This document shows positions 14,106-34,509 of a stretch of DNA of 34,725 nt, in pieces (positions within the stretch are counted from its first letter, which is position 1; each line of letters begins with the position of its first letter). The notes beneath the pieces were generated by a model that saw only the letters and a list, made by a program, of their open reading frames with translations, was not told the origin of the DNA and did not search any database. Source of the DNA: Saccoglossus kowalevskii (Eukaryota; Hemichordata; Enteropneusta; Harrimaniidae); NCBI RefSeq assembly GCF_000003605.2, contig NW_003137828.1:654534-689258 (forward strand). The letters are read 5' to 3'. The position numbers were made by a program, and so were the translations under genes.

Positions 14106-14530
14106 GTTCACTTCAGCTTAATATTGTTTGTCATTTTTAACACCCTCATTTTCGTGATTCTTCATGATAAGTAATACTGGTCTCCAAGTTGGAAACAGCG
14201 CCCTCACTAAGCTTATAAAAAGGCTGACGCTTGATCCACGGCCAATGTCTTTGGTTAGTAAATAAATACTTATGGGGTGTGATTTATTGGTTTCTAGGTT
14301 GTTTTATTCACAGTTAATTGTGTGTGGGTCGTTTCAATATATTTAAAAGGCCTCTGCCAAATACGTGCTGTAGTTCCGGAGTTAAGTCGGAGCATGAAGT
14401 CACCAGCAACAAGGTTACATCATGGTTTCGGTGCTTAAAAAAGTCGTGCTCGTAGATTATATTCCATGACTATCAAGCGAGCATAGTACAATTACCATTG
14501 TATCGTTCGTGGTGTGCGGCAATGCATTGT

Positions 14531-14567
14531 GGGATAAGTGCGAACAATTCTTTGAATTTATGAGTCA
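14531..14567 (+). promoter_or_regulatory. RLR-1 proximal promoter: AP-1 site and decayed kappaB-like site
   Basis: GGGATAAGTGCGAAC at 14531 aligns with GGGATTTCCCCGAAC upstream of RLR-2, and a TTATGAGTCAC block follows in both genes. TGAGTCA at 14561-14567 is a perfect AP-1 consensus, 85 bases before the ATG. The right half of the kappaB site is missing compared with RLR-2, and there is no TGACGTCA. Position and order relative to the ATG match RLR-2, so the two promoters are homologous. Function is inferred from consensus only. Confidence 0.45.
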
Positions 14568-14651
14568 CTACTTCCCGGTAAACATAACAAGTAGCTTTTG
14601 TGGTGTAATCCCCGCCGCGTTGTCTTCGGTACGTACAGTACACTAATAGTA

Positions 14652-17600
14652 ATGTCTTCACTGAATTCTACGCATACTTGCCGTAACAACAGTTTAGAGG
14701 AGGAACCGGACTATGAAGACCCGATTGAGATCAAGGTTCTTCGAAAACAACGGGGCGATTTTATGCATGGCATTATACCGTCGCAGATTGTCCCTCATTT
14801 GACATGTCTGACCCGTGCTGACGAATCGTGTATCCTGGCTGCGACATCACGGAAAGGTGATATAGAAGGCGCGGGAGTTCTATTATATCACCTCATGACA
14901 AAAAAAGATGTCTGGTATGAAGATTTGTTGAAAGCACTTCGTAACAATGACGTGAAGCTGGAACACCTAGCCACATCACTCGAGAACGGTAAGGACTAAC
15001 TATATCTATAGCTCTGTATGCATGTAATAATGCATATGTATATTAATTAAATAATTACTTGAGCGTATAAAGTACCCCCCCTACCGATGACTATAGTGTA
15101 ATACGAAAGTCGAATAATATTATACACTTGCCAGCGAATGAGTCAGCTAAAAAGACCACGTGACTCGAAGTTGACCAATAGAGAATAGTGTCAGGTTACA
15201 TCAGACTGCATCAGTAGTTCTTAATAACTAACGAGCGTTATGCATTCAAACGTTATGTATTTTTTACCTGCGTTCTATTAACTGCTACGCCACCATGTCT
15301 TTCTTCAAACTACCTGAATATTAATGTGTTTTGAAGATAAAACAAAATCTGCCGCAGAAATATTTCCTTCACATTCAACATACCCTATTTTTGTTCTTTA
15401 TAGTATTCTGTACCAAATCCAATTAGTACAGCACAGCCACTTCGTACTACAAAATCACTTCGTACAACACAGCCAGATTGTACTACTGAATAACTTCCTA
15501 CAACACAGCCTATTCGTATTACAGAATCACTTCGTACAACACAGTCCCCCCCCCGGGGGGGATACATATAACTTGCCTAATGGGGACGTACCCCTGAAAT
15601 GGGTGTCGTTTGTTTGAATTTTAGGTTTAAATATCGATCTAATTTCTGGTCAAGATAGGTATAAATATCGGTAATATATACATCAACCCGGAAATTAAAC
15701 ATGGCAATCAACATTCAAACGGAGATTTAACACGAAATAGAATAGGACACACATTGCTCAGTGAAATATAGAGCAAATACGGTAACTGTTTTATTTGAAA
15801 TAAACGGTGATGTCAGAAATGGTACTTTGGTATAAATATGGGTATAGATTTTGCCACTATCCAGGTATAAAAATGGTCACACTATTATGCACTCAGGGCA
15901 CCTCCCAACTTAGGATGGCAAAGTCGGGACTTCTTTTTTGTTTTACAAAAAGAAATAATTGTTTTAAGTCTTTTTAGTTTGATCGTGAAAAGTAACCTGA
16001 CCTATAAAGTAACTTTTTAAAGCCTGATTTGATTCGATAGCAGAAATGGATGCTTTCAGTTTGTTAAGTGCAACGGCAATACTTTCATCCGTGTTTGAAA
16101 ACAAGTCGATTTAAATGTTCAATGTATACGAGTAGTGTTTGAAAATCGCCCGGACAGTGAAAGGTCACGTACATTAACATAGGTTAGAGATGACGTATAC
16201 AGCTGCACTTTGATTCGTTGTCAATGCTAATGGACATCTTTTAATTAGCATAATCACCGGCGTGATTCCGCTCCGGTTTTCTCTCCAATTCAGGGTGTCG
16301 CCTGCAGATGCGTCCAGTCAAGATTTCTTTCGCAGTCACGCTAGTTTACGCGATCGCGTTAAAAAGGCTAAATTAATTATTTATTTTTTGTCAAACAAAA
16401 AAGAAGTCCCGACTTTGCCAGCCTACTCCATACCCAGCTATGTATCAACTGCACCCCGGAACACAGCCACTTCGTACTGCATAATTACTTCGTACAACGC
16501 AGCCACCTCGTACTACAGAATCACTTGTCTTACTATTTTTTCTATTTTCACCTCCAAGCTCATTCACGTACGCATTATATTTTGTAGTTTGATTTGATTT
16601 AAAGTTCTTAATTTGCTATTTTCACTAGAAAGTGTTTCTTTTTCATATTTATTTTCCATTGAGATGTAAAGTATCTGGTAAGTATATGTCCGTGCATATT
16701 ATAATGATAATTTGCATATTCATTTTCTCATTTCAGGTATGTAAGTAAAATATCAAAACCAACATTTGAATACTCATAGTTAATTATTAACTCAGTTAAT
16801 AATAACTCTGTTTTCACTGTGACTATTTTACTCTGATAATATATGGTAATTATTACTTAGAAGTGAAGAAAAGAAAGGAAGAGGTATATGATATAGAAAT
16901 GACATGTGAAGATAGCTACAGTGAAAGTTATGACACGGGAAATCTCGAGTCTCCGCCAAGCCAGAACTGCAATCAAGTATATGCTTGTCATATCATTACA
17001 GGTGATTTGTTTTGCATTTGCATCGCTGAAACAGCAAACCAGTTGCAATGAAGCAATGCAATGACAAAAGTATCAACTCATTGTAAAGTAATATTTGAGT
17101 ATTAAAGCTCTAGGACACATACATGTCATGTAATTAATAACAAGAAAGCGAACATAAAGCAATAGTAAGAGAGTATTATATCCACGTAAAGAGTTATGGA
17201 AATTAGAAATATATCATAACACTAATACAGTCTAATCCAATAACACTTGAAGGAAACTTAAAAGTAACAGTAAAAATACGAATGTGCAATTGGAAGTTGC
17301 ATAGAGTACATAGAAAATACATGGTTAGATCAGTGATATACTGCGAGGTGCTTCAACAAGTTTGAGAAATTCGAGGTATATACCAGACAAATGACATTGA
17401 TGTCATTTTAAATTACATACTCCATATATAGTGTAGTGTAAATCAACATTCTTCAAAACAAAATAACAATCAATCAATTACGCACATTACGTACATAGTT
17501 AAATCAGTAAATAAAAGATATATCGAGCCTAATATAAACATGAGGTGATTCAAATTAGCACATTCTGCTCAACTTATGCCCATATATCATTGGGAGGTAT

Positions 17601-20600
17601 AACTAAGTGGTTTGAGAGTGTTGAAAGATATATCCTTCAAACTCGACAAATATGTTGTCAATCAGATATTCTGACATACTGACAATGCTGATTTATCAAT
17701 ATACTGTAGAATCTGGAACTAAACCTGGAATCAAAACTGAGTTACATGTTCCGGGTGTACCTGATTACCCACCCCCACCTTACTCAAAAGTCGAGCACGG
17801 TTATGATCAAGGTATGTATGAATGTACAGACTGGAAATAACAGTTCATCACTTTACAAAAAGACAGAAATCATAAAAAAATGAAACACCACACACACATA
17901 CATATGTATTGATTCCGCATTCTCTGAAACTCGAAACTCCAACCCACAAAAATATTAACCCTGGCTATAATACACTGTCAATTTCATTCTTCTCATGAAT
18001 GTGATTTATTTCTTGATGTAAATGTTGCATAATAGTTTTTTTTCCATATTTATTTCCCAATTGCGGATATTCTCAAGCTTTGTTAGAATTTGTTTTGGGG
18101 ATTTTATTCTGGTTTTCTATACAGCTTCATAATAGATGAAATGTTTAATATATTTACAGCTCTATCTGTCGATAATGAAGGTTGCCATGGCGATGTCATC
18201 AAGCAAGATGGTGGCAATATTCAGTCTAAAAGAGTGTATGAGAGTGAAGGTAATAACACCCGATATATTTACGTAACACAACTTCCGACATAAATTAGCT
18301 GATAAAATATAGTGATAAATTCCAAACACATCATACATTTACACTCTTAAATATATAAATAATCCGACAATTGCCTACTTATTATTTATCTACGACTCAT
18401 ATTACAAAAAATACACACCTCAACCACACCAAGAAATGGATGTTCAATTGTAATAAAAGCTGTGTGTTTTATCTTTTTAGAAACAGCAAAAGAAAGTTTA
18501 GAGAAAGAGGTAATAAGTCCAGCTGCAGAATCTACACCAGTAGGTACCAGTGAGAGTCAAACAAGGTCAGTAATAATTAATAAAATAAATATATAAGTCT
18601 TCAATTATCAAAGAGACATTACCAATAAAACGTAATTTAATTAATTTTACAGTCCGATTTGACATTGACAATGACCCATTACCTTACAAGTATGTGTGCT
18701 TCTATAGATGTGATTAATGACTAAAGACAATTGTATTATATTATATTATCAGACATGTCATAAACTATGAAGTCCTAAAACCCCGTGGTTACCAGGAGGA
18801 ACTTGCTGGGCCAGCCTGTAAGGGATTAAATTCTATTATATGTGCACCTACGGGTACAGGAAAAACACACGTAGCTATGATGGTGTCCAAGAATCACATG
18901 CACCGTGCTATGGAAGTCCAAGCAGCAGGAAATAGCAGCACCAGCAAGGGAAAGATACTGTTAACTGTCCACATGACTCCCCTCCTTAACCAGACATATA
19001 AGCGTTTTAAGACGTACCTACCATTGTTTGAAACTGGAAAAATTAGTGGGGTTACTACCTCGAAACTAACATTTGAACACTTGGCTAAGATCAACGACAT
19101 TGTCATAACGACAGCTGGTTTCTTTGAAAACATCCTAGAAAGGAAAACTACATCAATATCAGCCTTTTCACTGATAATTTTATATGAGTGTCACTATGCT
19201 ATGTAAAACCATCCTTACAACCGCATAATGAGAGAGTATCTAAAAATCAAGCTAGCTGGTTGCTCTGCCCAGCTTCCACAGATTATCGGTTTGACAGCAA
19301 GCCCTGAACTGTAGGTAAAAGTCATCTCCAGGCTGCACAAACACATTTATTGAAACTATGTGCTAACTTAGATGCTCAGACTTTTGTCACTGTGCAAAAC
19401 CCTGACAATAAAGTCGAGCTCGAAAAGTACGTCAGTATACCCGATAAATTCACTACAATCGCCGCCACGAGATCTCCTGACCCTTTCCAAGACAGAATTG
19501 CTGAAACTATGGCAGAAATCGAACACAAGACTGGCGATATCGAGAGTGAAGGTAATCACACTCCATACATTTACGTAACACAACTTCATTGAGAATTTAG
19601 CTAATAAAATACCGTGGTAAATTCCAAAATGTACACTCTAAAATCTATAAATAATCCAACAATTGCCCAATTATTATTTATCTACGACTCATATGACAAA
19701 CAAATACACACCTCAACCACACCAAAAAATGTATGTTTAATTGTAATAAAATATGTGTGTTTTTCATTTTAGAAACAGCAAAAGAAAGTTTAGAGAAAGA
19801 GGTAATAAGTCCAGCTGCAGAATCTACACCAGTAGGTACCAGTGAGAGTCAAACAAGGTCAGTAATAATTAATAGAAAAAATATCAAAGAGTCATCGTCA
19901 GCTTTATTACCAATGAAACGTGAAAATGATTGTTACAGAATTTTATGTAATTTTACAGTTCGATTTGATATTGACAATGACACATTAACTTACAAGCCTA
20001 TATGCATCTATATATGTTTTTAAAAATGTGATTAATGACTAAAGACGATTGTATTACATTATATTATCAGACATGTCATAAACTATGAAGTCCTAAAACC
20101 CCGTGGTTACCAGGAGGAACTTGCTGGGCCAGCCTATAAGGGATTAAATTCTATTATATGTGCACCTGTGGGTACAGGAAAAACACACGTAGCTATGATG
20201 GTGTCCAAGAATCACATGCACCGTGCTATGGAAGTCCAAGCAGCAGGAAATAGCAGCACCAGCAAGGGAAAGATACTGTTAATTGTCCACATGAATCGCC
20301 TCCTTAACCAGACATATAAGCGTTTTAAGACGTACCTACCATTGTTTAAAACTGGAAAAATTAGTGGGGTTACTACCTCGAAACTAACATTTGAACACTT
20401 GGCTAAGATCAACGACATTGTCATAACGACAGCTGGTTTCTTTGAAAACATCCTAGAAAAGAAAACTACATCAATATCAGCCTTTTCTCTGATAATTATA
20501 GATGAGTGTCACTATGCTATGAAAAACCATTCTTACAACCGCATAATGACAGAGTATCTAAAAATCAAGCTAGCTGGTTGTTCTGCCCAGCTTCCACAGA

Positions 20601-23013
20601 TTGTCGGTTTGACAGCATGCCCTGGAACTGGAGGTAAAAGTCAACTCCAGGCTGCACAAACACATTTATTGAAACTATGTGCAAACTTAGATGCTCAGAC
20701 TTTCGTCACTGTGCAAAATCCTGACAATAAAATCGAGCTCGAAAAGTACGTCAGTAAACCCGATAAATTCACTACAATCGCCGCCACGAGATCTCCTGAC
20801 CCTTTCCAAGACAGAATTGCTGAAATTATGGCAGAAATCGAACACAAGACTGGCGATATCGAAACATGCCCACAACGAGGCACAGAGGAATATGAACAAT
20901 TCATCATCACAACGAGGAATGAAACATTAAATGGGAATAAACATGAGACTGTACAGTGTTGTGAACACCTGATTCAATACAATAAAGGTAAATAATGTTC
21001 TTAAAGACCATAGAAATATATTATATATATATGCAAGCAATCCATTGGTTTTATCTGCTATATATTTTAAATAAATTATACTTTTTTTTAGCAATAATTG
21101 ATTTGATTTATTTTAGCTCTGCAAATAAGTAGCATGTGTCGCATGAGTGATGGGTTAAAGATAATAGACGGCTTCTACAATGAACGATGGCAGCGGGGTC
21201 AGCACGAGACCACTTCTATTGAGAAGTATCTGTACAAACTATTCAGACGTAGGTTGACAATGCTTTATGTTATCTTACTCTATGATATATATCAGAGTAT
21301 CTACAATGTAGGGTTAGCACATGATACGACTCCTTGTCTGTTGTCTGACAGGCTCCGCTGCACTAGACCATTCACAATTTAGTATTTATATTTTAAGTAC
21401 TTGCTTCGGGACGTACAAATATCATGTCAATGATTGCAATAGGAGACACTTTTGTCCACGGAAACTTAGTGGGTATAATGAATATAATAATATACTAGCG
21501 TTGTACGCATTGTGTATACATACTACTTTCTTTTTGTACAAGATATGGATATTGTTTTGAATATTTTACATTATTTCATCAGATATTAGATGAACTCATT
21601 TTATTTTGTTCGTGGGAGCAGTGTATTAAATTAGGCAAGCTGTTATTCTGATTGTGGGATTATTGTAGTATTTTATACTTATGGTACATTGATTCTTCTT
21701 TTTGATACACTATCCACTAGCAATTAAATATTTATTGAATTCAATATTACAATTCAAACTATTTAATATAATTATTTTAAAGGTAATTCCAGTGAGCTGT
21801 TTGACATTAGTGAAGATGAAAACAAATATCCGAATCCCAAAGTTTTGAAATTGAAAGAAAATCTTGCTGAAGAAATTAAAAAAATGGACGAAGAACTCAG
21901 AGGTACTCACACTTATTTTAGAGAAATCACTGGCTTTTTTGAAAATAAACTTTAGTCCAGAATTTCGAGTATACGCTGTCTTCAGGTTCTGGTCGAACGC
22001 TTCTGTACATTTGATGTGACTTCTAATCAATGGAACTTCGACAACAACGGTTCTTCACTGCCAAAACAATTTCTTGTTTTTACCTTTTTCTGGTTCTCGT
22101 GGACATCGAAAAATATACCTCTTTCTCCGCGATATTCCGAACGCACCAGCCAAGTTCCCCGGGATACCACCGCATGATTGGTGGTAATGTTGGAACACAC
22201 AATGGCATTTAACGTAAATATTGTGACGTTTGCCGTTTATCAGTTAGTGATATTTCTGACTAAAAGTCACAACTGTGATTGATGCACGATAATCATGTGA
22301 TAATACATAATATAACCACATCTTATATAATATTTTCAGGAATTATTTTTGTGAAAACAAGGGCTTTGGCACGAGCAATATACGAGTGTATTGTCGACGA
22401 TAAAACACTGAAATCACTGAAACCCGCTATCTTGGTTGGAGTTAAATCGACGGGTGTGGAGTGTATGACGCAAGCTGAGCAAGATACCCGTCTGCGAAAG
22501 TTTGCACTTGGACATTGCAAGCTGTTGGTGGCAACAAGTGTTGCCGAAGAAGGGTTAGACATCAAAGAGTGCCATATGTTAATCAGATACAACTATTCAA
22601 CCAATGTGATATCACTGAGGCAGTCAAGTGGTCGAGCACGTGCGCTGGAGAGCACAGAACATTTCATTGGAGATGAAGATCTTGCTACGCGAGATAGTGT
22701 AAATGTTTTTCTCGACCAGCAAATGGAAAAAGCGATAGACTTGATTCAAGATATGCCGCAGGCGCAACTGCAAGGCACTGTGCGACATACACAAATGAAT
22801 GACATTGCTGAAGTTTATGAAAAAGAATCGAAACACATTCCTGTCAAATTCAAGTCAAATTCTGTCAAATTGTATTGCACTGGGTGTGGCAAATATGTAT
22901 GTAACGGAAATGACGTATATATTTATGATGAGAGCTCCCATATAATTGTAGATAAGGCCATTATTAAAAACATCGCCACCATAATGACCACAAGAAGCGT
23001 GATGCTGGGATAA
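14652..23013 (+). CDS. RIG-I-like receptor 1 (RLR-1): CARD - DExH helicase - truncated C-terminal domain
   Basis: Predicted exons: 14652-14988, 16861-17001, 17710-17811, 18160-18249, 19773-19857, 20071-20987, 21117-21248, 21783-21902, 22340-23013. All phases agree, and the product is 865 aa. Residues ~20-110 form a CARD similar to the MDA5/MAVS type ([18 protein letters not shown]). PPPPY is at 180-184. Helicase motifs: I APVGTGKT (283-290), II DECH (396-399), III TAC (433-435), [21 protein letters not shown] (736-742). The Hel2i region ([17 protein letters not shown]) marks it as an RLR rather than Dicer. Only the first zinc pair (C821, C824) of the RNA-binding C-terminal domain is in frame. 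Such proteins bind dsRNA in the cytosol, hydrolyse ATP and signal through the CARD. Motifs I, III and VI are altered relative to RLR-2, so ATPase activity is doubtful. The model skips a dead duplicate helicase exon at 18753-19551. Confidence 0.82.
15424..15546. repeat. 18-bp minisatellite, left part, in RLR-1 intron 1
   Basis: Alternating 18-base units close to CACTTCGTACTACAAAAT and CACTTCGTACAACACAGC, about seven in all. The same alternating units reappear at 16454-16528, as if a single array had been split by an insertion of about 0.9 kb. The plus-strand frame with repeated [10 protein letters not shown] comes from this array and is not a gene. Confidence 0.8.
15918..16421. mobile_element. 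MITE-like element with ~70-bp terminal inverted repeats in RLR-1 intron 1
   Basis: GGCAAAGTCGGGACTTCTTT at the left is matched by its reverse complement AAAGAAGTCCCGACTTTGCC at the right, and weaker similarity extends about 70 bases inward on each side (both arms include a TTTTT..GATCG block). The roughly 500-base length, long TIRs and lack of any coding frame fit a non-autonomous DNA transposon. No unambiguous target-site duplication was found. It may be nested in a larger element running from about 15547 to 16453, whose ends share CCGGGG..GATACATA in inverted orientation. Confidence 0.65.
16454..16528. repeat. 18-bp minisatellite, right part
   Basis: About four further units of the 18-base array of 15424-15546 (ACACAGCCACTTCGTACTGC, ACTTCGTACAACGCAGC, CACCTCGTACTACAGAAT). 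They lie directly to the right of the TIR-bounded insertion. Confidence 0.7.
17769..17783 (+). other. PPPPY (PPxY) motif in the RLR-1 linker
   Basis: Residues 180-184 in exon 3 read PPPPY, within [14 protein letters not shown]. PPxY motifs are the standard ligands of WW domains in NEDD4-family E3 ubiquitin ligases. The motif is kept in RLR-2 at the matching exon position, although the surrounding linker has diverged strongly. Confidence 0.75.
18481..18565 (+). CDS. RLR-1 exon 5A, duplicate small exon (possible alternative)
   Basis: This 85-base exon ([11 protein letters not shown] ... TSESQTR) is essentially identical to exon 5B at 19773-19857, with intact acceptor and donor. Its phases (1 in, 2 out) would let it splice directly to exon 6B, so it could serve as an alternative to 5B without changing the protein. 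Which copy is used cannot be decided from sequence. Confidence 0.6.
18753..19551 (+). pseudogene. Dead duplicate helicase-1 exon (RLR-1 exon 6A)
   Basis: This is a copy of the helicase exon 20071-20862 that has lost coding capacity. Motif I is intact (APTGTGKT), but the motif II aspartate is a tyrosine (YECH). A TAA stop follows at 19204-19206, and one base is deleted in the TASP region near 19307, followed by a GGA to GTA change. Before these lesions the fused exon would have ended in phase 1 and spliced in frame to exon 5B. The original duplicate could therefore have encoded a protein with two helicase-1 domains in a row. It is presumably skipped now. Confidence 0.85.
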
Positions 23014-23222
23014 AGAAAATATATTGTAAGCACTGCAAGCAAGACTGGGGCAATGCATTAGTTGGGCCAAACTTTTATCCTGTAATCAAAATTACTAGTT
23101 TTATAATTGAATACCCTGGTGGTCAAAGAAAAAAAGTTAAAAAATGGAAACAAACGAATTTTACATTAGAACGATTGGAGACACTACCATCACAACCACT
23201 TCATGATGTTACCGAGAAGTAA
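22966..23222 (+). pseudogene. Out-of-frame remnant of the RLR-1 C-terminal zinc domain
   Basis: After the A5 run at 22966-22970 the open frame continues only to a TAA at 23011-23013. In another frame, from 22971 to a TAA at 23220-23222, the sequence clearly matches the end of RLR-2: [20 protein letters not shown], then FIIEYPGG and KKVKKWKQTNFTLERL. It contains the second zinc-binding CxxC pair. One extra A in the homopolymer would restore continuity, so either a true frameshift or a run-length sequencing error is possible. Confidence 0.85.
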
Positions 23223-23540
23223 TCGAAATTTCAATATATGAAATGAGATTCTAAGAAGATTGACTGCGGAAGTCTTCTCAATATTGTTGTATTATAAAGG
23301 TCGCCTAGATCAAAATTTCTGTTGAGCTGCAATTATGTTATAAGTATATAGTTATGTTAGAGTTTCATAAAATGGAATGAAGTAACAGAAACACGTGGAT
23401 GAGGGCCGTGACGACCGACCTCTTAGAATCATCCTTAATCGGAGTCGACCTTTCAATCATTGGGTATTAATATATCCAATTTCATTCGATTAACAGTAAT
23501 GTTACTGTTAAATGATGAATCCAGAGGAATTGTAATGTGG

Positions 23541-24960
23541 ATGCAGTGCTATTGTATATTAGTTGGTCGATATTGTAATTGTCGACAAAAAGCTAGTGTA
23601 TACTAGTTGGTCAATATTGTAAGTATGAACGAAATGCTAGTGTATATTAGTAGTCGGTCGATATTTTAATTATAGACAAAATGCCAGTTTATATTATTAG
23701 GTCTATATTGTATTTTGAATGCAGTGCTAGGGTTTATTAGTTGGTCGATATTTTAATTATAGACAAAAGGCTAGTGTATATTAGTAGGTCAATATTGAAA
23801 TAATGGACGAAATGCTAATGTGTATTAATAGGTCGATATTTTAATTATAGACAAAAGGCTAGTGTATATTAGTAGGTCAATATTGTAATAATGGACGAAA
23901 TGCGAATGTGTATTAATAGGTCGATATTTTAATTATAGACAAAAGGCTAGTGTATATTAGTAGGTCAATATTGTAATAATGGACGAAATGCGAATGTGTA
24001 TTAATAGGTCGATATTTTAATTATAGACAAAAAGCTTGTGTATATTGGTAGGTCAATATTGTAATAATGGACGAAATGCGAATGTGTATTAATAGGTCGA
24101 TATTTTAATTATGGACAAAAGGCTAGTGTATATTAGTAGGTCAATATTGTAATAATGGACGAAATGCGAATGTGTATTAATAAGTCGGTATTTTAATTAT
24201 AGACAAAATGCCAGTTTATATTATTAGGTCTATATTGTATTTTGAATGCAGTGCTCGGGTTTATTAGTCAGTCGATATTGTAATTATGAACGAAATGCTA
24301 GTGTATATTAGTAGGTCAATATTGTAATAACGGACGAAATGCGAATGTGTATTAATAGGTCGGTATTTTAATTATAGACAAAATGCCAGTTTATATTATT
24401 AGGTCTATATTGTATTTTGAATGCAGTGCTAGGGTTTATTAGTCAGTCGATATTGTAATTATGAACGAAATGCTAGTGTATATTAGTAGGTCAATATTGT
24501 AATAATGGACGAAATGCTAATGTGTATTACTAGGTCGGTATTTTAATTATAGACAAAATGCCAGTTTATATTATTAGGTCTATATTGTATTTTGAATGCA
24601 GTGCTAGGGTTTATTAGTTGGTCGATATTTTAATTATAGACAAAAGGCTAGTGTATATTAGTAGGTCAATATTGTAATAATGGACGAAATTCTAATGTGT
24701 ATTAGTAGGTCGATATTTTAATTATAGACAAAAGGCTAGTGTATATTAGTAGGTCAATATTGTAATAATGGACGAAATGCGAATGTGTATTAATAGGTCT
24801 ATATTGTAATTATGGACAAAAGGCTAGTGTATATTAGTAGGTCAATATTGTAATAATGGACGAAATGCGAATGTGTATTAATAGGTCTATATTGTAATTA
24901 TGGACAAAAGGCTAGTGTATATTAGTTGGTCGATATTGCAGTTTCCATGCAGTGCTACTT
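23541..24960. repeat. 44-bp minisatellite array (~32 units, 88-bp higher-order pattern)
   Basis: Two related 44-base unit types alternate. One is GCTAGTGTATATTAGTAGGT followed by CAATATTGTAATAATGGACGAAAT, the other has GCGAATGTGTATTAATAGGT followed by CGATATTTTAATTATAGACAAAAG. A third variant (GCCAGTTTATATTATTAGGT then CTATATTGTATTTTGAATGCAGT) is interspersed. The array lies between RLR-1 and RLR-2. Degenerate outliers containing GCAGTGCTA occur up to about 25075. There are no non-repeated spacers. Confidence 0.95.
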
Positions 24961-25154
24961 TAAATTATTGGTTTATCCTGTTAATTGGAGTGCAGTGCTA
25001 CATTATTATTGGCGATACTTTAGATGCAGCGTTATTTTCTGTGAAGAGTTTTCCATAATAAATTGAGTGTGCAGTACTACTGTATATTTGATGATTGCCT
25101 GTGTTTTGTAATAATTTAATTTTGGAATAATTTAGGAATAATCTCTATTTCAAT

Positions 25155-25670
25155 TAAGGTAGAGATGCAGGTTTGTAGGCACATGGGAGTGAATTTTTTT
25201 TTGCTTGTTATTATCCAAACAGTTTTGGCTGTAGACTGTTAAAATTTTGTAGAATTGTGAATAGTGGAACATACTCAAAAAACGATTTTAATATATAGAT
25301 AACAGGTGCAAACATTCTCTCTTTTGAATGCTTAGCAAGATTTAGCAAGGCTGTACATAAATAATAAAAAAGAAACATGTTGAAAAAAAGAAATGACGGG
25401 ATCTCCATATTATGCACAATATTTAACTTTTTACAAAACGATAGTACATTTAAATTTGGAACTGTTACAGCCATTTTAATTATGATCATTAGCAAACTTC
25501 TTACTGAGTGAATTGTTATGCAAATTAGCAATTATCTCAGCTTCTTTTTAGTGCACATTCCAGAACTTTAGCTCCTAGAAAATAGGTCCTAGACGCTTTG
25601 ACCTTTTGTTTTGAAATTTACACAAATGATTGACAATGTGTTTATCTTCAAAACGCCGTCGAGGCATTTG
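25155..25670 (+). repeat. ~0.52-kb dispersed direct repeat, copy 1 (3' of RLR-1)
   Basis: This stretch starts at AAGGTAGAGATGCAGG, runs through AATTGTGAATAGTGGAACAT and CAAGATTTAGCAAGGCTGTA, and ends at AAAACGCCGTCG. It recurs in the same orientation and order at 33969-34488 with small differences. A long minus-strand open frame is preserved in part in both copies, but its composition (Phe/Leu/Ile-rich) is not convincing as protein. It could be a dispersed transposable element, or the duplicated 3' flank of the ancestral RLR gene. Confidence 0.85.
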
Positions 25671-25679
25671 TTTGGGTTG

Positions 25680-27512: not shown

Positions 27513-27840
27513 ATGAATGCTCACAATACATCTATGGCCATTGGTGTCGAGGAAGATCCAGACTACGTTGATCCCATTGAAATTACGATTTTAAGGCAGC
27601 AGCGAGGCGTATTGATACATGACATTATACCATCGCAGATTATTCCTCACTTGACATGTCTGACCCGTACCGACGAAGGTCGTATCCTGACTGCTGAAAA
27701 CAAAGGTAGTACGATCGACGGAGCACTGACTTTACTGGATCTTCTTGTTAAAAAAAGAACAGAATGGTACGAGGACTTTTTAAAAGCACTTAGGAACGAC
27801 GAGGTCAAACTCGGCCACCTCGCCGCGTCGCTGGAAGAAG
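27513..27840 (+). CDS. RLR-2 exon 1, CARD
   Basis: This single exon encodes 109 residues ending in phase 1. After an acidic lead (VEEDPDYVDPIEI) comes a six-helix death-fold pattern: ILRQQRGVLIHDIIP, QIIPHLTCLT, DEGRILTAENKG, DGALTLLDLLVKK, WYEDFLKALR, VKLGHLAASLEEG. Spacing and the conserved tryptophan match CARDs of the MDA5/RIG-I/MAVS group. The matching exon of RLR-1 (14652-14988) has the same layout and phase. Confidence 0.88.
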
Positions 27841-30800
27841 GTAAGCAGTGAGCTGAAAGGACGGTGGTCGTCGCGTCGCGCATGCGCGACATTTGTGTTG
27901 ATAAACATAGATTTTCCCACAATCCAATGCGCACAAGTTTTGACCCGGATACAACATGCGCTAATTACCGTTGTTGACGCTTTCGACGCCTTCCAAGCAC
28001 TAAACAAATTATCTACGTAAAGCATGGTACTCGGTCTGCACAACAGTCAAAATCGCCATCTTTTTTTCATATCAGACCCATATCGCGCGCATGCTTGACG
28101 CGAAGACCATCGCCCTTCAAAGGTATTCATAATTTGTTGTCAATATCATGACATTGTTTTCAGTCTTATCACAGAAAGTTCCTTTCACGTTCGCATTGTC
28201 ATTGTGCAATGATTCGCCGGGTTCAGTGACTTCTACTGCCATGCCTGTTGACAAATATTAGATTGTTTTGCAACATATTGAAATATACAAAATTATAATT
28301 TATAACCGCTTCCAGTGTATGCAAACATACGTTGAAATGTTATACTATATTGCACTATTTCTAGTCAAAATTTATGCTGTTCGAAGTAGCTCATTTTCAA
28401 TGAAATATATTAAAACTGATTTACTATTAACACTAGGAAATGGATGTGTTTGATATGCAATGAATGGTAAAATGTAAAACTACTTATGATTGGCCAACAG
28501 TTTATAAACCAATTTAGCATATGACATGTATTATATAAAGTCATAATTGAAAGCTGGTAGAGATAATGGTATTACGCCAATGGGGAATTTGTCTTATTTC
28601 TATTTTACTCCCTTTCCATATACAGTTACCGGTATATAGCCCACTGCTTCTTGCTCGTTATATAAACGATTGTATATTTTGAGTGAACATTACATACTCT
28701 TGCATTTACTAGGTGTTGAGAAAGGAAGACAGAGTGAGGCACAGAAAGATGGTATCCGAACGTTTGAAGGTGGATACTCTGAAGGAGAGTCGGCTGCAGG
28801 CAATCTGAAATCACCCCCAAGTCCTGACACGGCTCATAAGCAATACAGCACAAAATTGATTCCAAGATTTTCCCAAGAACATAGAGGTACATTAGTTTAT
28901 TTTGATTGTTTTAACCCACTTCTATTAAGAGGAATCTAGACCCTGGTCTACTTTGCCGGTGACTAGATACCGGTACTTATACACATGTATTGCGTTGTGC
29001 ATGACCAATTATTACAGTGCATACCATCGCGCATTTGCCCACCATTGGTTGTCATTGAACAAGATTTAATTTACTATGCATGATTGACTTGTCAACTGTC
29101 CATGTTTAACTCTTTATATATTGGATAATCTAATCAATCAACTCCACCAGACTTTAATATTTTGTCATGTTAATGATTTACAGGTCGCATAGGACCGGAA
29201 ATAGCACACACTTTTTCATCAGCTGGATATATTCCTGATGACCCACCACCACCTTACACATCTGGTTCATTTATTGAAAATCAAGGCCAACCATTACGGG
29301 GTGCAGAAGAAGATCTTGGAACTAGTCCTAGTCAGTCAGTCGTTAACATTTATATACATAAAGATGCTAAAATACAAAGTTTGCAAATTGGAGATCACAA
29401 TGTATTAGAAGCCGAAAGAAAGCAAGACAATGCTGGTAACAAACTTTATATATATTCATATATCAGTAGTAGCACACGTTTTGATGCAGCTGTACATCCA
29501 TTTTCTAAAAAAAAATCATAAAATTCAAAAGAACTTACATGATGGTAAATAATAGTGAAAGTTTAAAAAATATTATCAATGTTCCTTACCTAAAACATGC
29601 TACTATTAAAGATACTTCTGTGGACGTGGGTTCAATGCATAATTATTCACAATTAGTGTTAATACTCTCATATTTTACATTTAGATTTGTTAATAATTTG
29701 TTTTGAATTATTGTGTAGTTTCACATACAAATACGGAAGACGATGAACCAATAGAAGATGATGGGGACGTTTATTACACGGCACCTGAAGTTCAGAAAGA
29801 TGTCACACAAGGTGAAACAGATTAAATTACGTAATGCTCTTATAACAGTTACATTGCATATTAATTGCCTGTACAGAAATGTGAACTCATTTGGTACGAA
29901 CGTTTATTTTTATTTTATTTCGTAAACAGGAAATGGGGAAGTTGAAAAATGCACACTTGAAATGTCAAAAATGCTCACAAACCAAACGTCATCCACAGTT
30001 GCTGGGAGCATTCAGAAAGTGTAAGTATTTTGTTTTATTGTACAGTGCATGACAATACGAATCATTGGATTTATATGTTAGAGTCATCAAAGTCATTTAT
30101 TCAACTTTATAACTGACTTATAATATATATATATATAGTTTTAATGTGTCCAAATGCTTAGTTTAAAAAAATGACAAAATATTAAGCATATGATAGCATA
30201 TGTAAGTGTGCATATCATGTTAAATTATTTATTTCTTGCAGAATTGTTACTCCAAATTATGAAGAGTTGATACCTCGTAGTTACCAGGAGGAACTTGGAG
30301 GACCAGCCTGCCGTGGATTAAATTCCATAATATGTGCACCTACTGGTACTGGAAAAACACATGTAGCTATGATGATTGCCAAACGCCACATGGAAAATGC
30401 TTTAGCATCTCAAGCCCGAAAAGGTTTTACCACCAGCGGAGCAAAAGTCATCTTTCTGGTTCACAGAATACCTCTTTTGAACCAGACGTATAAGCGACTG
30501 AAGATGTACCTGCCTTTGTTTGAAATTGGCAAACTAAGTGGAGCTTCGTCATCAAACGTAACCTTTGAAAAGTTGGTCGAAATAAATGATATCATAATCA
30601 CCACTACTGATATATTAAAAAACAGTCTTAAACATGGGAAGTCATCTATGTCAACATTTTCTCTCATCATAATAGATGAATGCCATCATGCTATGAAAAA
30701 TCATCCATACAACATAATCATGGCTCAGTATCTCAAAGAAAAATTTGATAACAAATCGTCCTTACCGCAAATAGTTGGATTGACAGCTAGTCCTGGGACT

Positions 30801-33137
30801 GGCAGTAATAGTGAACTCGGAGCAGCAAGGGACCACATTTTGAAGCTTTGTGCTAACTTGGATGCCGGTGAATTTGTGACAGTGAAGAACCCCCGGAATA
30901 AAGCAGAACTAGAGAAGTTTGTCACAGACCCTGATAAAGTAACAACAATTACCACTCCAAGAAATCCTGACCCTTTCCGTGGCAAAGTAGAAGAAATTAT
31001 GGCGAACATTGAAGGGAAAGCCAACTTTACAAATGTATGCCCACCACGTGGTACTCAGCCATATGAGACATTCATCATTTTACAGAGAGATGAAGCCATT
31101 GCCAATAAAAACCACGAAACTGCACAATGTTGTGATCACTTAAATGAATATAACAAAGGTAATTTAACAATAATATCAAGTAATTATCAAGATAGTATGT
31201 ATTGACATACTTGACCCAGGGACACCTTATACATTGTATCTAGGTAGCTGAAAAAAGTATATACCCGAAATATTGTGCCATGTTTCATACACCCAAATTA
31301 AACAAATCCACGTTGTCATTCCGTCATATGCCGCGGTCTCTAATGAAGTATTTCTGCAAAGTAATTCGGTGCAAGGGACACCGCTCATAGCGACAAAAGT
31401 CTTTTGATAAGTGGTTGTCCATCTGTACTGTTTTAAGTCATTTGTCATATTCTAAATAGTGAACGACTACTCAACAAGGTGTCTCATTGAGTAACATTCG
31501 TACATTCATCACCATCATTTTTACGTCACGTACAATCTTTGTCTGTAGAGGGCTCGAATGATAAGAGAGGTATATTATCGATTAATCACTAGTTGTTGTT
31601 TGGTTCCCCAGGTCTGCTGACAAGCGATGTGTGTCGTATGAGTGACGGCTTGCTGAATATAGATGAGTTCTACAACGAAAGAAGGCGACGAGGTCAACAC
31701 AAGAATACTCCAATGGAGGATTACCTATACAGATTATACAGAAGTGAGTTGAAAAATATTCTTGAGCATAATGAAGCACAAAAACATTAGACGATCTAAA
31801 TAAAAAAAATGAAATTATTATTATGTTGTTATATCTGTATATATATATGTATTATCTCAAACTGTGATTTAGGTAATTCTGGTGACCTGTTTGAGGCAAG
31901 TGACAAAGAGAATGATCACCCAAATCCAAAGGTAGTGGCATTGAAGCAAGCATTGAAGCAGGAAGTTCAAGAAAAAGGCAATGATTTTCGAGGTAACGTT
32001 TGCGATATGAATATTCATAGCGATCTGTAACTATAAACAACACTGGACACCCCGGGATATAGTTAGCAATTTTTAAGGCCAGAAATATAAACAGCATATA
32101 TATAAAGTGATTGTTTTCATTTTCTTTGTAAATTCATAGGACAAAAGTATCATGAAGATAAATAAATGCACATCTCAATGTATGGTCTGATAATGATATG
32201 AACATAGACAATTCCCCAGTTCCCCTGCTTTCAATTAAACTTCCTATTTTCAGGCATAATTTTCGTGAAAACCAGAGTTCTAGCTAGTGCAGTTCTTGAC
32301 TGTATAAAGGAGGATCAGGAGCTACAAATGTTGAGACCGAGCAGACTGACAGGGGTGAAAACAGCTGGTGATGAAAGCATGACACAGGCTGAACAAGATA
32401 GTAATCTGCGAAAGTTTGCAGATGGTGATTGCAAACTCCTGATTGCAACCAGCGTTGCCGAAGAAGGGCTAGACATTAAGGAGTGCCACATGGTAATCAG
32501 GTACAACTACGCAACCAATGAGATATCCATGCGGCAGGCACGTGGGAGAGCTCGAGCAACTCAGAGCAAGGAGCATTTTATCGGTGATGAAGAACTTGCT
32601 TCGAAAGATCACGTGAATGTTTTTCTTGACCAGCAAATGGAAAAAGCAATACAAATGGTCCAAGGAATGCCAAGAGAAGACTTCTTGAACGCAGTCTTAG
32701 ACACACAGAAATCTGTAATTGATGAAAGAAGCGAAAAGGAATTGACGATGCGTTTGAAAAGGGGGGAGAATGAAGCAAGTACAGTCAAACTCTTTTGCAG
32801 AGGTTGTGATGAATTTGTCTTTTTTGGAAACAATGTTTATTTATATGGCGAGAGTTCACATATTATTAAGGATATGAATATAATCGAATGCAAGATTGAG
32901 TTTCGCGAACACACTGACAAAAAGAAACGTGATAAAGGTATAAAGAAGATATATTGCAAAGTATGTAGCCAAGACTGGGGTAATACGTTGCCATCTGGAT
33001 ATCCTGTAGTTAAGATTGAAAGTTTCACTCTAGAGTACGCAGATGGTAGCCGGAAAAGAATTAAAAAGTGGAAAAGTGCGGATTTCACATTGGATGTCTT
33101 ACAGCGACTCCCACCGTTCAAAAAAAAAACCAAGTAA
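27513..33137 (+). CDS. RIG-I-like receptor 2 (RLR-2): CARD - PPPPY/RHIM-like linker - DExH helicase - zinc C-terminal domain
   Basis: Predicted exons: 27513-27840, 28713-28886, 29184-29435, 29719-29811, 29930-30020, 30242-31158, 31612-31743, 31873-31992, 32254-33137. All phases agree, and the product is 996 aa. A CARD occupies residues ~20-109 ([26 protein letters not shown]). The linker (110-312) has PPPPY at 188-192 and a RHIM-like motif at ~220-245. Helicase motifs: I APTGTGKT (345-352), II DECH (458-461), [37 protein letters not shown] (797-803). Hel2i spans exons 6-8. The C-terminal RNA-binding domain has both zinc pairs (C884/C887, C937/C940) and a basic tail. RLRs recognise viral dsRNA in the cytosol, filament or oligomerise with ATP, and signal through CARDs to MAVS-like adaptors. 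One CARD rather than two, and no lesions: this is the likely functional copy. The ATG at 27513 is in the CARD frame with promoter elements just upstream. Confidence 0.93.
27850..28124. mobile_element. MITE with CpG-rich terminal inverted repeats in RLR-2 intron 1
   Basis: The left end AAAGGACGGTGGTCGTCGCG is mirrored at the right by CGCGAAGACCATCGCCCTTC, with a further GCGCATGCGCG-type palindrome inside each arm. The element begins about ten bases after the exon 1 donor. Its left interior (TTGTGTTGATAAACA, CCCACAATCCAATGCGC) matches the reverse complement of the right interior of the element at 33279-33571, so the two copies are oppositely oriented. No coding frame is present and no clear target-site duplication was found. 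Confidence 0.7.
29243..29257 (+). other. PPPPY (PPxY) motif in the RLR-2 linker
   Basis: Residues 188-192 (YIPDDPPPPYTSG). This is a WW-domain ligand consensus conserved with RLR-1 (residues 180-184) in a linker that otherwise barely aligns. NEDD4-family ligases use such motifs, and in vertebrates MAVS turnover is controlled by WW-domain ligases, so a regulatory role is plausible but inferred. Confidence 0.75.
29339..29416 (+). other. RHIM-like amyloid motif in RLR-2
   Basis: Residues ~220-245 read VVNIYIHKDAKIQS followed by LQIGDHNVLEAE. RHIMs of RIPK1, RIPK3, ZBP1 and TRIF share a core (I/V/L)-Q-(I/V/L)-G followed two residues later by Asn and then a hydrophobic residue, with an upstream beta-prone segment rich in I/V. 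The LQIGDHNVL core and the upstream VNIYI strand fit that pattern closely. The motif lies in a disordered-looking linker between CARD and helicase, as RHIMs usually do. It is absent from the shorter exon 3 of RLR-1. The assignment rests on motif resemblance alone. Confidence 0.6.
30242..31158 (+). CDS. RLR-2 exon 6, helicase domain 1 and start of Hel2i
   Basis: This 917-base exon is identical in length to RLR-1 exon 6B (20071-20987) and in the same phases (2 in, 1 out). It carries the Q-like region PRSYQEELGGPACRGLNSII, motif I, the Ia region FLVHRIPLLNQTY, motif II in [11 protein letters not shown] and motif III in GLTASPGTG. The Hel2i entry PPRGTQPYETFIILQRDEA corresponds to the MDA5/LGP2 segment that begins the RLR-specific insertion. 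All catalytic residues I can identify are in place. Confidence 0.9.
32780..33137 (+). other. RLR-2 C-terminal RNA-binding (RD/CTD) domain with a complete zinc site
   Basis: After the helicase-2 and pincer region, LFCRGCDEFVFFGNNVYLYG supplies the first CxxC and IYCKVCSQDWG the second. This is the four-cysteine arrangement of RIG-I, MDA5 and LGP2 C-terminal domains, which read RNA ends or the duplex stem. The tail GSRKRIKKWKSADF is basic and consistent with nucleic-acid contact. The domain ends in a lysine-rich tail (FKKKTK). Confidence 0.88.
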
Positions 33138-33968: not shown

Positions 33969-34488
33969 TTAAGGTAGAGATGCAGGTTTGTGGGCACTTG
34001 GGAGTGAATTTTTTTTTTTGCTTTTTTGCTTTTTATTATCCAAACAGTCTTGGCTATAGACTGTTTAAATTTTGTAGAATTGTGAATAGTGGAACATACT
34101 CAAAAAACGATTTTAAAATATAGATAACAGGTGCAAAATTATCTTTTTTGAATGCTTAGCAAGATTTAGCAAGGCTGTACATAAATGATAAAAAAAAACA
34201 TGGTGAAAAAAAGAAATGACGGGATCTCCATATTATGCACTGTATTTAACTTTTTACAAAACGATAATACATTAAAATTTGAAACTATAAGAGCCATTTT
34301 AATTATGAGCATAAGCAAACTTCTTACTGATTGAATTGTTATGCAAATTAGCAATTATCTCAGCTTCGTTTTAGTGCACATTCCAGAACTTTAAAAAAAA
34401 ATAGCTCAGAGACGCTTTGACCTTTTGTTTTGAAATTTTCACAAATGATTGACAATGTGTTTATCTTCAAAACGCCGTCGGGGCATTG
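33969..34488 (+). repeat. ~0.52-kb dispersed direct repeat, copy 2 (3' of RLR-2)
   Basis: Collinear with 25155-25670 from AAGGTAGAGATGCAGG to AAAACGCCGTCG, with few substitutions and small indels in A/T runs. Its position downstream of RLR-2 parallels copy 1 downstream of RLR-1. That fits a duplicated gene-plus-flank unit, but independent insertion of a repeat family is also possible. Confidence 0.85.
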
Positions 34489-34509
34489 TTTTTACCTTGC
34501 CCGTACCAT

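Follow-up and report, generated by a model that had tools for sequence, protein, structure and literature searches.

A RHIM-like core in the linker of a predicted single-CARD, MDA5-like RNA receptor of Saccoglossus kowalevskii

The stretch of Saccoglossus kowalevskii DNA analysed here, referred to below as the window (34,725 nucleotides, positions 654534-689258 of the contig numbered C2922 in our scans), holds two tandem paralogues of the RIG-I-like receptor (RLR) family. RLR-1 lies at 14652-23222, its CARD exon starting at 14652, and is separated from RLR-2 by a tandem array of 44/88/175-base units at 23529-24957. Within RLR-1, the helicase exon region is present twice, at 18237-19543 and 19538-20862; the two copies are 91% identical, the first having in-frame stops and the second being open. 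RLR-2 is flanked, at 25154-25673 and 33969-34491, by a repeat of roughly 530 bases (91% identical, same direction), which may be a mobile element or the trace of a gene-copy move. The features of RLR-2 are as follows.

27513-33137, plus strand: RLR-2 gene, nine coding exons, 996 aa, in the order CARD, linker, DExD/H helicase, RIG-I_C-RD
27513-27840, plus strand: exon 1, single CARD (Pfam CARD_2, 1.5e-11, residues 26-99)
28713-28886, plus strand: exon 2, linker (spliced model)
29184-29435, plus strand: exon 3, linker, 252 nt with phase 1 on either side, holding the RHIM-like segment (spliced model)
29243-29257, plus strand: PPPPY proline-rich motif of exon 3 (local alignment to RLR-1 at 17757)
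29339-29356, plus strand: VVNIYI, possible beta-strand or aggregation-prone stretch ahead of the core (aggregation scale)
29381-29407, plus strand: RHIM-like core LQIGDHNVL (translation, top-ranked 14-mer, Pfam RHIM match below cut-off)
29719-29811, plus strand: exon 4, acidic linker (spliced model)
29930-30020, plus strand: exon 5, linker (spliced model)
30242-31158, plus strand: exon 6, helicase domain 1 (spliced model, Pfam)
31612-31743, plus strand: exon 7, helicase region (spliced model, Pfam)
31873-31992, plus strand: exon 8, helicase region (spliced model, Pfam)
32254-33137, plus strand: exon 9, helicase domain 2, RNA-binding C-terminal domain and stop codon (spliced model, Pfam)

This gene model is predicted from the genomic sequence. 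All of its introns are GT-AG, and the nine joined exons give one stop-free frame of 996 aa. Pfam matched CARD_2, DEAD, ResIII, Helicase_C, RIG-I_C and RIG-I_C-RD in the protein, all above cut-off, and the closest solved structure is MDA5 (E 1e-110), followed by LGP2 and RIG-I. The RLR-2 model thus combines CARD, DExD/H helicase, Helicase_C and RIG-I_C-RD, the set by which we recognised a RIG-I-like receptor. Because of this domain set and of MDA5 as the best solved relative, we assign RLR-2 as a single-CARD, MDA5-like RLR.

An earlier note on this DNA had placed an exon at 29184-29435 and proposed a CARD, RHIM-like linker, helicase and RD architecture. The predicted exon agrees with the nine-exon model, and the architecture is real at the level of that model. 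Exon 3 is 252 nt long with phase 1 on both sides, and therefore an isoform that skips it would lose the motif and keep the frame. It could accordingly be pictured as a cassette, or as a mis-modelled exon, that is usually absent from the mature receptor, leaving a plain CARD-RLR. However, the exon is open throughout, has AG/GT borders, and in its PPPPY part resembles the RLR-1 linker at the matching place (17757, local alignment); we regard its usual absence as highly improbable.

The plus strand at 29339-29416 translates to VVNIYIHKDAKIQSLQIGDHNVLEAE, in frame within exon 3, which bears out the earlier reading of a linker with LQIGDHNVL after a VNIYI strand. The further claim that this segment closely matches the RHIM pattern holds for the core and fails for the N-terminal half, where both spacing and letters differ. 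When the RLR-2 core is aligned with RIPK3 of human and mouse and with human RIPK1, its Q, G and N are the invariant columns, and the letters of mouse RIPK1, compared by eye, have the same three in common with it. In GDHNVL, the N stands three residues past the tetrad G and a hydrophobic residue follows two later, as in a RHIM. The N-terminal half of a RHIM, ahead of the tetrad, reads I-[YF]-N-x-[ST]-x, as in the letters of human RIPK3 and mouse RIPK1; in RLR-2, LQIG is preceded by DAKIQS, and this pattern is absent. Moreover, nine residues separate NIY from the tetrad in RLR-2 against four in RIPK3 (NIY to VQVG). An aggregation scale gives VNIYI as the strongest stretch within the linker, just as it gives LVNIY for RIPK3, and a charge-hydropathy plot places the linker as a whole on the side of disorder. 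The core tetrad is given as (V/I)-Q-(V/I/L/C)-G in an excerpt of PMC9444067; Q, I and G of LQIG conform to it, and L stands where V or I is expected. RIPK3 of amphibians and fish naturally has the tetrad LQIG according to portions of PMC12119088, in which most of the human RIPK3 tetrad variants tested activated NF-kappaB, at less than the wild-type level, TQIG and VQSG alone were named as inactive, and all variants were able to drive ZBP1-dependent cell death. By its letters, the RLR-2 segment is a RHIM core and not a full RHIM.

Exon 3 might instead serve as another kind of functional linear motif, for instance by offering a beta-strand for docking or by belonging to a PPPPY adaptor-binding exon, with no amyloid involved. 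The PPPPY motif in the same exon, kept by RLR-1 and a possible WW-domain ligand, speaks for such a role, as does the VVNIYI strand, which is positioned unlike that of a canonical RHIM. But PPPPY ends 41 codons before the core, RLR-1 has PPPPY without the QIG core, and it is the core's Q, G and N that stay invariant in comparison with RIPK1 and RIPK3. We therefore consider this explanation improbable.

The profile search on the linker, which had been proposed as a check of the motif, went against it. Pfam RHIM (PF12721) matched the 26-aa RLR-2 peptide over QIGDHNVL at 11.6 bits (E 0.22), below the gathering cut-off of 20 bits, and was the sole family to match this peptide at E 10. The positive controls scored 42.6 bits (human RIPK3), 38.5 bits (mouse RIPK3) and 24.4 bits (human RIPK1). 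With the 83-aa exon 3, a 35-aa stretch or the whole RLR-2 protein as the query, Pfam RHIM gave no match, and a PDB search with exon 3 and the 26-aa peptide returned nothing at E 10. In the same genome, an 80-aa open frame that is probably without meaning (L034, IQIGNFNFV), and which we did not count as a RHIM, reached 10.7 bits in Pfam RHIM; because of this background frame, the RLR-2 score alone says little. On these data, the RLR-2 motif is not certifiable as a member of PF12721.

The tandem paralogue counts against a functional motif. In the three forward frames of 14400-23400, covering RLR-1, the best local motif matches score at most 28 and none has the core; therefore, the motif was either gained in RLR-2 or lost in RLR-1. 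A second motif-bearing RLR was sought on contigs C3161 and C2797 and none was found in the stretches read, that of C3161 being partly N and stopping short of the distal CARD; the four genome pattern scans placed no motif site on either contig. On another contig, four CARD_2 matches lie within 2.5 kb (C1466:119765-122244), three of them above cut-off and one of those three with an internal stop, which is perhaps a multi-CARD protein or a set of tandem genes.

The main alternative to a functional motif is chance: a disordered, fast-changing linker may happen to spell a RHIM-like core that has no function. The motif is short, its core is not found in RLR-1 and its Pfam score is near background, all of which a chance resemblance would fit. 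Against this, the RLR-2 site is the only match to [IVLM]Q[IVLF]GxxN in the six frames of the whole window. When the 203-aa linker was shuffled 200,000 times, the pattern [IVL]Q[IVL]GxxNx[MLI], picked post hoc, turned up in 28 trials; shuffling the whole protein 50,000 times gave it in 47. Ranking by profile is a fairer test than shuffling, whose patterns were set after seeing the sequence. The window and 21 other loci, translated in all six frames, yield 121,969 14-mers (some loci overlap and give duplicate 14-mers), among which the LQIGDHNVL site ranks first under each of three profiles that leave the site out. It scores 18.2 bits against 14.2 for the runner-up with a profile of four vertebrate RHIMs, 17.1 against 12.6 with a profile of two other motifs from its own genome, and 22.8 against 14.2 when these six motifs are combined.

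We also asked where else the core occurs, scanning the genome (572 Mb, 4830 contigs) with several patterns. The QIGD core, [LIVMF]QIGDxNx[LIVMF], has nine sites genome-wide and three in a reversed control. Three of the nine were recognised in domain-bearing genes, namely RLR-2 and the following two.

C257:872697-875722 (L032), open frame of 1069 aa: TICAM-like TIR adaptor (TIR_2, 4e-7), motif at C257:874197, position 1501 of the locus
C1268:149490-152515 (L040), minus strand: IAP-type protein at positions 381-1613 of the locus, with three BIR domains (1.3e-50), motif at C1268:150989

All three carriers belong to innate-immunity or cell-death classes. The remaining six sites lack a recognised gene domain, which leaves room for chance. 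Those on C446, C998 (twice) and C2722 lie in open frames of 12 to 63 aa, and Pfam found no family in the C446 frame or in 57 of the 63 aa of one C998 frame; the C2031 site has a stop codon within the match, and that on C4497 (QIGDNNIL) is a tandem repeat. A short open frame may be a short exon, and therefore "three" counts the recognised carriers, the other sites being unlikely rather than non-coding.

A loose pattern, [IVLMF]Q[IVLMF]G[DN]xNx[IVLMF], gave 58 sites against 12 in the reversed control, an excess inflated by repeats. Reading frames were inspected for 44 of the 58 sites and for the RLR-2 site, leaving 13; the loose pattern omits CTN leucine codons at three places, and the QIGD-core scan admits them at two. 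Eight short or middle-sized open frames from the scans were run through Pfam, of which one gave TSP_1 and one the 10.7-bit RHIM match described above. The TSP_1 case, FQVGDSNCI, sits inside the domain in a non-immune context and was not counted as a RHIM; it does provide a looser match of the kind that chance would produce. Also not counted was VQVGDENKL in a 317-aa frame (L057), with no Pfam domain at E 1, and the sites on C3649, C4781, C4528 and C3818 have good letters but open frames of 12 to 65 aa. With [IV]Q[IV]GxxNxM, 13 sites were found against 7 in the control: the TIR adaptor, the IAP and 11 others in frames no longer than 43 aa. The RIPK-type ending [IV]Q[IV]GxxNx[LF], taken as a raw count with the letters of one site read, gave 50 sites against 40 in the control, little excess, and the genome pattern scans thus identified no RHIM-bearing kinase. 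A Pfam RHIM search of the same genome returned two sites, at 20.1 bits (above cut-off) and 16.8 bits, each with an internal stop codon; this search also matched in 1 of 14 control genomes and did not return the RLR-2 site. Searches of the genome with exon 3, a 29-aa peptide or the TIR-adaptor segment each found only the query itself. As a separate observation from this genome, mitochondrial COX1 (C4830, L088) reads TGA as Trp, carries ATA codons where other sequences have Ile, and has AAA codons at expected Lys positions. Together with the look of the protein, this code usage would suit a non-echinoderm ambulacrarian, perhaps a hemichordate.

The TIR adaptor carries IIHQHYHITGQHIQIGDMNAMHV, with the core IQIGDMNAM, C-terminal to its TIR. 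In TRIF, too, the RHIM is C-terminal to the TIR. Among solved structures the adaptor TIR is closest to TICAM2/TRAM (E 1.3e-10, the next kind at 5.3e-5), and no TICAM1 chain is among the PDB matches listed for it. The IAP carries IQIGDSNVMHV (core IQIGDSNVM) near its N-terminal end, where it probably starts at an ATG after an in-frame stop; RHIM-like motifs are not a usual feature of IAPs, which makes this protein notable by itself. On the same aggregation scale, the adaptor has a stretch, IPTII, comparable to VNIYI of RLR-2, and the IAP has no strong stretch ahead of its core (best 0.35). Pfam RHIM did not match the adaptor or IAP segment. Therefore, these two motifs are not independent proof of RHIM identity, which for all three proteins rests on the shared core and the kind of gene; the Pfam profile may fail to pick up the form that the motif takes in this animal. 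The same organism thus has other proteins with a matching motif, and the near-identical cores of the C257 adaptor and the C1268 IAP support a RHIM reading of the RLR-2 motif. More importantly, since the only recognised domain-bearing carriers are an RLR, a TIR adaptor and an IAP, chance becomes less likely and candidate partners can be named. Weighing the shuffles, the first rank of the site and the two innate-immunity genes against the points above, we judge a functionless resemblance unlikely, though it deserves to be taken seriously.

RHIM signalling has been described for RIP kinases, TRIF and ZBP1, and vertebrate RLRs signal through CARDs to MAVS. With the RHIM of RIPK1, RIPK3, ZBP1 and TRIF, the RLR-2 segment shares a hydrophobic-Q-hydrophobic-G-x-x-N-x-[LM] core, a location where an innate signalling protein is flexible and an upstream beta-strand-like stretch. 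It differs from PF12721 in its sub-cut-off score, the L that opens the tetrad, the strand nine rather than four residues away and the missing N-x-[ST], and from known RHIM proteins in that its host is an RNA helicase. ZBP1, a nucleic-acid sensor that carries RHIMs directly and has Z-alpha domains and no CARD, is the closest functional analogue, with Z-alpha in place of the RLR helicase and RD. TRIF and amphioxus bbtTICAM, the latter reportedly a TIR-RHIM adaptor, are likewise RHIM carriers in an antiviral pathway, and a similar motif is borne by the TICAM-like TIR protein of this genome; unlike RLR-2, they are TIR adaptors and not RNA sensors. RLR-2 has the CARD, DExD/H helicase, Helicase_C, RIG-I_C and RIG-I_C-RD found across MDA5, LGP2 and RIG-I, and departs from these receptors in the RHIM-like motif of its linker and in having one CARD, where RIG-I and MDA5 have two (portions of PMC8998645). 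Lophotrochozoan RLRs are similar in forming tandem copies with altered signalling regions beside the helicase; the N-terminal grafts named in the same portions are Death, CARD, IG, DED, SAM and CASc, and RHIM is not mentioned there. RLRs have been noted in hemichordates (excerpt of PMC10210618), and nemertean data revealed no RHIM, as stated in part of PMC9835746. SMART found RHIM only in vertebrate RIPKs according to an excerpt of PMC9573974, which the portions of PMC12119088 contradict. The earlier note knew of no described RLR with a RHIM, and our search agrees: none appears in the titles and abstract openings of the best-ranked full-text matches, a body of literature that lies largely outside subscription journals.

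Taken together, the intact exon, the first-ranked 14-mer and the immune-gene carriers make chance less likely and favour a RHIM reading. The earlier proposal to this effect stands in its gene-model architecture and gains from the two other carriers; it falls short in PF12721 membership (11.6 of 20 bits) and in RLR-1, which is without the motif. The two separate polymerising outputs that it drew from this architecture are putative. On balance, and with modest confidence, we favour the interpretation that the RLR-2 segment is a functional RHIM-like amyloid motif in the flexible linker of an MDA5-like dsRNA receptor.

Starting from what was read directly, namely the gene model, its domains, the motif and the two other carriers, we infer assembly, pairing and output as follows. 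dsRNA gathers MDA5 molecules along the RNA, and it would likewise make several RLR-2 receptors assemble side by side. Their linkers would be brought together, raising the local concentration of the motif, and the LQIG cores could then stack into a short cross-beta seed. Such a seed might template the cores of the TICAM-like adaptor (IQIGDMNAM), of the IAP (IQIGDSNVM) or of both, which would pass the signal on towards cell death or into NF-kappaB-type pathways. The RLR-2 CARD would act alongside, giving the usual death-fold nucleation. We hypothesize, more tentatively and at less than even confidence, that RLR-2, the TICAM-like adaptor and the RHIM-IAP form a three-part RHIM circuit in which amyloid templating joins RLR sensing in the cytosol to Toll-like sensing through the TIR, possibly without a RIP kinase.

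RHIM and RLR are each already known, and what is new here is an RLR with a putative RHIM-like amyloid core. If this reading is true, RNA helicases and IAPs can be connected to RHIM networks, and viral RNA would lead to cell death by a path that is more ancient or runs in parallel.
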